This document shows, piece after piece, positions 33,802-45,239 of a stretch of DNA of 64,000 nucleotides. Location of the stretch: assembly GCF_900167955.1 (NCBI RefSeq), contig NZ_FUYK01000003.1:62001-126000 (forward strand). Reading direction: 5' to 3'. Position 1 is the stretch's first letter. Each line of letters begins with the position of its first letter. Under the pieces are notes generated by a model. That model was not told the origin of the DNA. It saw only the letters and a program-made list of their open reading frames with translations, and did not search any database. A program made the position numbers and the translations under genes. The stretch is from Candidatus Nitrosotalea bavarica (GTDB lineage Archaea; Thermoproteota; Nitrososphaeria; Nitrososphaerales; Nitrosopumilaceae).

Positions 33802-33886
33802 AGGTGTTACTTCAGTGTTAAATCAGTGTTAACCAGTGTTAAATCAGTGTTAACCAGTGTTAAATCAGTGTTAAACTAGTGTTAAC
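33802..33886 (+). repeat. Helically phased tandem repeats (iteron-like)
   Basis: Eight units of 10-11 bp run head to tail: a degenerate AGGTGTTACTT, then alternating CAGTGTTAAAT and CAGTGTTAAC, with a last CTAGTGTTAAC. Together they form a 21-bp dimeric unit repeated almost exactly three times from 33813. The units fall on one DNA face (about 10.5 bp spacing). This suggests cooperative binding of a regulator or an iteron origin of an integrated element. They lie between two leftward genes, 33 bp beyond the end of the 192-residue regulator gene. Confidence 0.7.
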
Positions 33887-33918: not shown

Positions 33919-34497
33919 TTATGAAAATTCAGGAAGAAGACAGCTATATTCTGTACCCATATGCTCACGTTTTATCGCATAGTCTACTGAAGTGTAGAGA
34001 TTTGGTAATTTTTCTTCTCCCTTTCTTTCTGTCAACGCAAATGCTTGTGCTATCACCTTATCTATTGCATCCATGATGCTCTCTATTTTTTCTGCATCCT
34101 CTTTCTCAAAGTGCTTTCTGATTAGCAATCTCTGATGCGACTTTGAGAGATTCTTGATTGTAGAATCTGTAAAGTCGAGGATCTCAGAAATATTCTTGTC
34201 TTCAATCTTTTTTAGTTCTGCACTAACCTTCTTGAGATGCCCCTCTATTTTGTCAAGGTTTTTTTCATTTCTTTGTGGGGCTAGACGATAAATAGAATGT
34301 CTGCCGGCTTGTTTGGTTTTGTAGACTGACTTGTTCATCAGTCCCAACAGGGCTTCATCGAATACACTGTAGTGCAGATCATACTTGGGTTCTTTGTCAC
34401 GTAGACGCTCTTCCGCCTTTTTGAGAAGCTGAGTATATCCCAAATCTTCTGGCATCAAGGCCCAAATTATCGCATCCTGTACATCTTCTTTTTTCAT
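33919..34497 (-). CDS. Putative winged-helix/coiled-coil regulator
   Basis: A 192-residue protein. The first 75 residues suit a winged helix (EDLGYTQLLKKAEERLRDKE, then KTKQAGRHSIYRLAP as the wing). A helical coiled-coil part follows (LKKVSAELKKIEDKNISEI). The gene is divergent from the tyrosine recombinase with only 58 bp between their starts, so it probably shares and may control that promoter. The GTGTTAA tandem repeats lie just past its end. The DNA-binding assignment rests on secondary-structure reading. Confidence 0.55.
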   Translation of the reverse strand: MKKEDVQDAIIWALMPEDLGYTQLLKKAEERLRDKEPKYDLHYSVFDEALLGLMNKSVYKTKQAGRHSIYRLAPQRNEKNLDKIEGHLKKVSAELKKIEDKNISEILDFTDSTIKNLSKSHQRLLIRKHFEKEDAEKIESIMDAIDKVIAQAFALTERKGEEKLPNLYTSVDYAIKREHMGTEYSCLLPEFS

Positions 34498-42902: not shown

Positions 42903-43916
42903 TTACCTATATTCATCCCCACAGTCACCAATAGAAGAAAACAAATCATTTGATCTTGAGGTTACTGATCTTATCTTTTCATTATCTTCTTTATCTAAAT
43001 TTAATGAAAACACTCTAGCATTGTCTGACTTGTGCTCTGCTATGCCAAGTCTTACACCAATTATCACACCTGCAACAACGGGTTTATCCAAGACATATTT
43101 TGCAGCAACATTTGCAATGCTGACATGATGCTTTTTTGCTATATGATTTAGTACCGCAAGTAGCTCTTGAAATAGAGCCCATCCACCCCAGACATCAATC
43201 ATGGTCTTGTATTTCTGCAAACTTGATGTATATAGCTCAGACCTCGTTGGCTCTGGTTTTTCTCGATAATTTTCAGACAAGAATCCTCCGAGAAGAGTTC
43301 CATAAGCTAGTAGTTTGATGTCATGTTTTTGGCAAAATGGAGTCATCTTGACTTCAGGTCTAGAGTCTATGATAGAATATTGCACTTGATTTGATACTAG
43401 TTTGAATCCATTTTCTACCATAGTCTCAATTCTTTCCGTATCAAAATTTGTCAGTCCAACATGTCGTATCTTTCCATCATCTTGAAGCTTGAAGAGATGA
43501 TGTAATGCATCAATGTAGCTTGGATCGTTATAATCCCACCAGTGAAACTGGACAAGATCGATTGCTTTTACATTCATTCTTCTAATGGACTTGTCAATGT
43601 AATGCTCCACAATTGATCTAGTCATGGGACCTGGATTGGGGACAAATTTTGTTAGAGCCTGTATTTTGTCAAGTTCGTCTTTACCCTTTTTCTTTTCAAG
43701 TCTTCTTCGAAATTCACCGATGTATTCTTCGGCAGGTCCATAAATGTCTGCCATGTCCCATGTAGTAAAACCAGAATCATGGTATGAAAGCATCTCAGAA
43801 ATGGCAGATTCTGGGTCAATTTTACCATGACCTCCCGCTACCTGCCACATACCGTTTAGGATTTTGCAGATTTGCAAGTCAGATGTTAACTGGTAGGTTT
43901 TTTGTGATTGTGACAT
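42903..43916 (-). CDS. Aldo/keto reductase
   Basis: A 337-residue AKR TIM-barrel oxidoreductase. The catalytic Asp/Tyr are in TWDMADIYGPAE, Lys in ALTKFVPN and His in VQFHWWDYND, giving the Asp-Tyr-Lys-His tetrad. The phosphate-binding part lies in the C-terminal third (VIIGVRLG). It reduces aldehydes or ketones with NADPH. The relatives it recalls are the AKRs that act on sugar-like or quinone substrates; the true substrate is unknown. It is a single gene, divergent from the CBS/zinc-finger gene. Confidence 0.86.
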   Translation of the reverse strand: MSQSQKTYQLTSDLQICKILNGMWQVAGGHGKIDPESAISEMLSYHDSGFTTWDMADIYGPAEEYIGEFRRRLEKKKGKDELDKIQALTKFVPNPGPMTRSIVEHYIDKSIRRMNVKAIDLVQFHWWDYNDPSYIDALHHLFKLQDDGKIRHVGLTNFDTERIETMVENGFKLVSNQVQYSIIDSRPEVKMTPFCQKHDIKLLAYGTLLGGFLSENYREKPEPTRSELYTSSLQKYKTMIDVWGGWALFQELLAVLNHIAKKHHVSIANVAAKYVLDKPVVAGVIIGVRLGIAEHKSDNARVFSLNLDKEDNEKIRSVTSRSNDLFSSIGDCGDEYR

Positions 43917-44047
43917 GCTTGTGATTTTCTGAAAACTTTACCTTATTTCTCTTTTTAATCTTCTTATACTTTTACCAATTACATCATACAATACCACATA
44001 TGAAAACTACCCATTAGGTTAAATCTCAAACCTCGCCATTACAATTC

Positions 44048-44131
44048 ATGATATCGGACATTCTAAACGAGCCTGTCTCCAAGTTTACAAATAAAAAAAT
44101 GAAACGAGCCTGTCTCCAAGTTTACAAATAA
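44048..44131 (+). pseudogene. Displaced 5' end of the CBS/zinc-finger gene
   Basis: An ATG at 44048 opens a frame MISDILNEPVSKFTNKKM that is the natural first strand of the CBS domain encoded downstream. A 37-bp tandem duplication shifts it by +1, so it runs into KRACLQVYK and stops at 44129-44131. Removing one 37-bp copy would join it in frame to the gene that now starts at 44136. Confidence 0.7.
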
Positions 44132-44138
44132 AAAAATG
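44065..44138 (+). repeat. Perfect 37-bp tandem duplication
   Basis: The unit runs from AAACGAGCCTGTCTCC to AATAAAAAAATG and occurs at 44065-44101 and 44102-44138 without mismatch. The length is not a multiple of three and each copy ends with an ATG, so the duplication breaks the upstream frame and supplies a new start. Confidence 0.92.
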
Positions 44139-44594
44139 ACTACAATATCAAGCGATCTTACCATTCAAGACGCAGCAAAGGCAATGGCAGAATCTAAAGT
44201 AGACAGTATCCTAGTCTTTGAAAAGGGAAAAATAATAGGAATGGTTACAGAAAAGGACATTTTACAGGATATAGTAGCAAAGGGACTAGACCCATCAAGT
44301 ACAATCCTCAAACAAATAGCAAAGAGTCCATTAATTACCATAAACAAAACCGCTCCAGTAAAAGAGGCACTAGAAATAATGAAAAAGCATGATATCAGAA
44401 GGCTAGTAGTAATGGACAAGCGTCCAATTGGACTTGTAACCCAAAAGATGGTCTGCGGAAATCTCACTGACAGAGATATTGTACTGCCAGAACTAGAGTT
44501 CCCAGATAAAACAACATGTCCCTACTGCACTCTACATTTCAAAGACAATGCAAGTCTTGGCAAGCATATTGATAGGATTCACATCAAACTATAA
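44136..44594 (+). CDS. CBS pair fused to C2H2-type zinc finger, truncated N-terminus
   Basis: A 152-residue protein. CBS1 (TIQDAAKAMAESKV, IGMVTEKDILQDI) lacks its first strand because of the upstream duplication. CBS2 ends IGLVTQKMV. The C-terminal 30 residues carry CPYC-x(13)-H-x4-H (residues about 128-148), a C2H2 zinc finger. Such a tail could bind nucleic acid or a protein partner in response to adenylate binding. In the intact form the gene would start at 44048, adding about 17 residues. Currently only the short form, from the ATG at 44136, can be made without frameshifting. Confidence 0.82.
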   Translation: MTTISSDLTIQDAAKAMAESKVDSILVFEKGKIIGMVTEKDILQDIVAKGLDPSSTILKQIAKSPLITINKTAPVKEALEIMKKHDIRRLVVMDKRPIGLVTQKMVCGNLTDRDIVLPELEFPDKTTCPYCTLHFKDNASLGKHIDRIHIKL

Positions 44595-44657
44595 TTTACC
44601 AAAATTGGGAAATTTTGCATAATTTTATAACAATCCTGAAACAGCCATTGATTACAC

Positions 44658-45239
44658 ATGGTAGTAAAACGACAGCCCCACCCTACAAAACATGAACAGA
44701 CCCGAAGCATAAGTTATCGTTTACCAGAGCATATCATAGAAGAGTTGGAGACAGAGGCTCAGCAAAAGGAGATATCTCAGAATGTTTTGGTAAAACAAAT
44801 TTTAGAAAAATATGTCGGTTGGGAGAGATTTGCAAAAAATATTGGCATGATTCCAGTTCCAAAAGAGATTCTCATGGTACTAGGTGAAAAAATGGACGGA
44901 GGGGTAATGAATGAGATAATACAAAAAATGACTCCAATGATTAAAGACTGGGTCATGTTTATGAAAGGCAGTTATGATTTGAAACGAGTAATAGAATCAC
45001 TTGAGGAGTACATGCGAGCATCTGGCATGACATCAGACCATAGAATTGAGGGAGACATTCATCATTTTATCATACAGCACAATCTTGGAATACGCTGGTC
45101 TTTATTTACAGAACTTTTCTTAAAACAAGTCTTTCACGAGTTTCTACCAGGTCTTGTCATGAAATCTCGCACTACACCAAATACAGTCATATCAAGTATT
45201 GCGCTAGGTTCTGACTTTAGCGAACACGACCATAGTTGA
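44658..45239 (+). CDS. Ribbon-helix-helix-like regulator with conserved C-terminal domain
   Basis: A 193-residue protein. Residues 15-50 fit a ribbon-helix-helix DNA-binding unit (RSISYRLPEHIIEELETEAQ, then SQNVLVKQILEKYVGW). The remaining 140 residues are helical and hold a His-rich patch (DIHHFIIQHNLGIRWS) of unknown role. It lies 63 bp after the CBS/zinc-finger gene. Similar two-part proteins are frequent in Nitrososphaerota, but I cannot name the family. DNA binding is an inference from the N-terminus. Confidence 0.68.
   Translation: MVVKRQPHPTKHEQTRSISYRLPEHIIEELETEAQQKEISQNVLVKQILEKYVGWERFAKNIGMIPVPKEILMVLGEKMDGGVMNEIIQKMTPMIKDWVMFMKGSYDLKRVIESLEEYMRASGMTSDHRIEGDIHHFIIQHNLGIRWSLFTELFLKQVFHEFLPGLVMKSRTTPNTVISSIALGSDFSEHDHS

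Follow-up and report, generated by a model that had tools for sequence, protein, structure and literature searches.

A 37-bp tandem doubling that splits a CBS-domain gene in a draft Nitrosotalea-type genome is probably an assembly artefact

Locus, reading frames and orthologues

The window analysed here is a 64-kb stretch of DNA, positions 62001-126000 of contig 11 in the draft genome (1.55 Mb, 19 contigs) of a Ca. Nitrosotalea-type ammonia-oxidising archaeon, whose closest relatives are MAGs labelled Nitrosopumilales, Thaumarchaeota or Candidatus Nitrosotalea. It carries a gene for a protein with two CBS domains and a C2H2-like finger, split near its 5' end by two directly adjacent, 100% identical copies of the 37-bp unit AAACGAGCCTGTCTCCAAGTTTACAAATAAAAAAATG. 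The features, in window coordinates, are as follows:

44019..44024, + strand: TATA-like TTAAAT, 29 nt before ATG 44048; likewise in orthologues
44048..44131, + strand: short ORF of 27 codons plus TAA, cut short by the doubling; its start and leader are conserved across 11 orthologues
44065..44101, + strand: 37-bp unit, copy 1, from the sequence and TRF
44102..44138, + strand: 37-bp unit, copy 2, identical to copy 1; in excess of the single copy in the orthologues L032-L042
44136..44594, + strand: 152-aa remainder with two CBS domains and a C2H2-like finger; its ATG is Met18, conserved in same-genus orthologues

Both copies, first noticed in a sequence-only reading, were recovered from the sequence and by TRF (period 37, 2.0 copies, score 150). 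Chance falls far short of explaining such a perfect tandem repeat of a 37-mer in unique sequence. Copy 2 is listed as the excess copy, but either could be the extra one. The frame from ATG 44048 reads MISDILNEPVSKFTNKKMKRACLQVYK and ends at TAA 44129-44131. ATG 44136, 4 nt from this stop, lies in another frame and opens the 152-aa ORF that ends at 44594. Translation thus bears out the earlier claim that the second copy shifts the frame into a stop at 44129 and offers a new ATG at 44136.

The unit itself, as examined, lacks internal repeats, flanking repeats and recombinase-site features, and microhomology at the junction is at most 1 nt. The rest of the genome holds no further occurrence of the unit, and a mobile or CRISPR-like repeat was rejected on this ground. 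No N marks the junction as a join, and none is present anywhere in the 64-kb window. An Rfam search of 43800-44800 gave no match, and a scan for promoters and terminators stayed at chance level with bacterial models, which are uninformative for an archaeon.

Comparison with relatives, using one genome per species, showed a single copy of the unit and an uninterrupted gene of ~168 aa in 11 of 11 same-genus orthologues. The expectation that one copy would give one continuous protein therefore holds in all of these relatives. The first 18 residues of the orthologues are conserved (LLNEPV.KFTN.KM). In all 11 and in the window, TTAAAT or a near variant precedes the start codon by 28-29 nt, and this TATA-like box suggests a putative leaderless transcript starting at or near ATG 44048.

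Against PF00571 (CBS), the remainder scores 83 bits in two stretches, with a cut-off of 24, and is thus assigned to the CBS-domain proteins. The C2H2 profile PF00096 gives 18.9 bits, below its cut-off of 25.2, while the Cys-Cys-His-His residues of the tail are invariant in 14 homologues; we therefore call the tail finger-like only. Codon comparison indicates that the gene is under purifying selection, with dN 0.07 and dS 0.75 (dN/dS about 0.09) against the orthologue L033 over 150 codons. Many genomes of the genus have genes of this two-CBS, C2H2-like-finger type, as do other families of the order. The neighbouring gene in the window (44658-45239) encodes a ribbon-helix-helix-like protein, which scores 24.8 bits against the CopG antitoxin profile, below the cut-off of 28.

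In L033, the first Pfam CBS match begins at residue 10, so a protein begun at Met18 lacks the leader together with ~8 positions at the front of the CBS match. The 5' end had been read as encoding the first CBS strand; what is lost, however, falls short of a whole strand. The AlphaFold model of L033 (mean pLDDT 79.6) places short helix and strand elements within the stretch lost by the Met18 start. The model hints at an impaired short form, which it does not prove.

Doublings, gaps and contig ends elsewhere in the draft

In 1.17 of the 1.55 Mb of the draft we searched for perfect tandem repeats with a unit length of 20-400 bp; the control was 1.28 Mb of sequence from relatives, of which two single-contig genomes supplied 1.2 Mb. 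In the control, all exact tandem repeats found had periods divisible by three. The draft, in contrast, holds two two-copy doublings in unique sequence with periods not divisible by three, 37 bp and 38 bp. Its other such periods, 23 and 47 bp in L113, fall inside a low-complexity coding array. More doublings are possible in the draft, given the share of it that the scan covered.

The second perfect doubling, 38 bp at C11:163821-163896 (L050:17821-17896), lies outside the window. It shifts the frame of an OppF-like ABC ATPase and splits the gene just before Walker A. Alignment with four relatives gives one copy at the site, and in the relatives that hold the gene at full length it is one frame of 321-350 aa. 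No N and no visible microhomology are present at the 38-bp junction. Slippage between flanking repeats was rejected for both doublings, which have no flanking repeat and a microhomology of 1 nt (37 bp) or none visible (38 bp). With microhomology near zero, neither site offers a sequence reason for slippage, and both look like blunt joins.

At a third doubling, C15:397499 (L128:17499), a 29-bp stretch comes directly after an NN gap and is repeated at an offset of 34 bp. A single copy is present here in three relatives, among them one with 98% identity over the 299 bp that precede the site, so the draft has 31 extra bases, NN included. Here a short doubling coincides with a marked join. The assembly thus contains doublings at places unrelated to the CBS gene, the 38-bp one and that at C15:397499.

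Arrays with units of uneven length were also observed. In L117:583-680 (contig 15 near 140583), a coding array of 33-bp units includes one of 31 bp; in L113:10212-10328, a coding array of 24-bp units includes one of 23 bp. The frame may be broken in either. These odd-length units are possibly more assembly errors at repeats. Within the window, an intergenic array at 33813-33885 holds ~3.4 copies of the 21-bp unit CAGTGTTAAATCAGTGTTAAC near the 3' end of a minus-strand ORF (33919-34497).

Contig ends of the draft show unmerged overlaps of 29-109 bp in 11 end pairs. Five pairs (contigs 5/9, 16/19, 10/19, 9/16 and 9/18) overlap by exactly 63 bp, which points to k-mer graph assembly of short reads; the remaining overlaps are 29, 47, 49, 56, 101 and 109 bp. 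That the doubling simply equals the contig-end overlap in length is unsupported, since the commonest overlap is 63 bp and not 37. Contigs 7 and 11 share the 101-bp overlap and look adjacent. Scaffold gaps remain in the draft as short N runs, and their sizes are wrong against relatives, with 2 N in place of 14 bases and 8 N in place of 161. For the gap at L105:18586, four relatives were searched and gave no match.

Origin of the doubling

The most probable explanation, which we hold with good confidence, is that the 37-bp doubling is a draft-assembly artefact, an uncollapsed contig-end overlap. Two neighbouring contigs would end in the same 37 bases; joined end to end with the overlap left uncollapsed, they would present these bases twice, and a gene that is otherwise intact would have its frame broken. 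On the actual chromosome there would be a single copy, and the product would be an ordinary two-CBS/C2H2-finger protein of ~169 aa, as in the sister genomes. Similar doublings elsewhere in the draft, including one beside a marked scaffold gap, make an assembly error likelier than a genetic switch. We infer an origin at such a join at a site that no N marks; where a join was made gapless, an N is not a defining requirement of an artefact. Several observations nevertheless stand against an artefact. Neither blunt junction carries an N, the lengths 37 and 38 differ by one and neither equals the 63-bp overlap, the blunt cases number only two in the 1.17 Mb scanned, and assembly with a k-mer of 63 would have no difficulty with a genuine 2 x 37 array.

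A real and recent tandem duplication in the sequenced cells, which would end translation from ATG 44048 at 27 codons, appears unlikely. It matches the sequence as deposited, and the undecayed remainder (dN/dS as above) is consistent with a very recent event. The remainder would then likely be either lost, giving a null allele, or made at a low level by termination-reinitiation at ATG 44136, in a form that would lack the first 17 residues; the 4-nt spacing of stop and ATG and the conservation of this Met agree with such an outcome. However, the 17 lost residues are conserved, and this account would require that two conserved genes in the same genome had each undergone an independent blunt, frame-breaking duplication, the two being of nearly equal length. 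Nothing comparable was found in the 1.28 Mb of relatives, and the same assembly produces such doublings at scaffold gaps.

The sequence-only reading had also proposed a reversible on/off or long/short switch, in which slippage or recombination shifts the copy number of the unit and toggles the form of the protein. In principle, loss of a copy from a perfect tandem repeat is possible, and a single copy does give a continuous frame in relatives. Yet two copies were seen in no relative, all other species having one (one genome per species), and a search for archaeal phase variation by tandem duplication turned up nothing relevant in the literature collection covered. The site is not of a kind prone to slippage or recombination: it has just two copies of a unique 37-bp unit that recurs nowhere in the genome and is free of internal or flanking repeats and recombinase-site features, with 1 nt of microhomology. 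We therefore consider a switch, for which there is no positive evidence, very improbable. The same holds for its specific version, in which a real, reversible duplication toggles a leaderless archaeal CBS/zinc-finger gene between a form of 169 aa and a short one of 152 aa made by reinitiation. What stands of the earlier reading is the frameshift by copy 2, the continuity of the single-copy gene and its aside that an assembly artefact was possible, which the 38-bp and C15:397499 doublings make a better explanation than the switch.

An assembly artefact at this locus carries a caution, in that short perfect doublings in draft genomes can mimic recent frameshifts or switches. Annotation of this draft would record no fewer than two conserved genes as truncated or split; automatic tools would probably choose ATG 44136 as the start, and the error would go unseen. 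Were the doubling genuine, this ammonia-oxidising archaeon would carry a natural null or short allele of a rare kind.

Comparison with known systems

The gene is the same as that of the two-CBS proteins with a C-terminal C2H2-like finger of ammonia-oxidising archaea, with two CBS domains and a CPYC...H...H tail, and differs from them only in the doubling and the resulting split frame.

In phase-variable genes switched by tandem-repeat copy number, a repeat in the 5' coding region sets the reading frame. The 37-bp repeat likewise lies inside the 5' coding region, where its copy number sets the frame. Unlike those genes, it consists of one duplication of a long unique unit, with no copy-number variation among relatives.

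Uncollapsed contig-end overlaps, or negative gaps, are known from short-read assemblers (SOAPdenovo2, PMC5368935; Meraculous, PMC3158087), and one short-read assembly had 985 negative against 515 positive gaps (PMC3158087). The present case differs from negative-gap scaffolds on two counts: the 37-bp junction has no N left, and the doubling does not match the 63-bp contig-end overlap in length. It resembles them in being a short, perfect, direct doubling in unique sequence that breaks a frame, in occurring as one of several doublings in the assembly, one of these at an NN gap, and in the overlapping ends left in the same draft.
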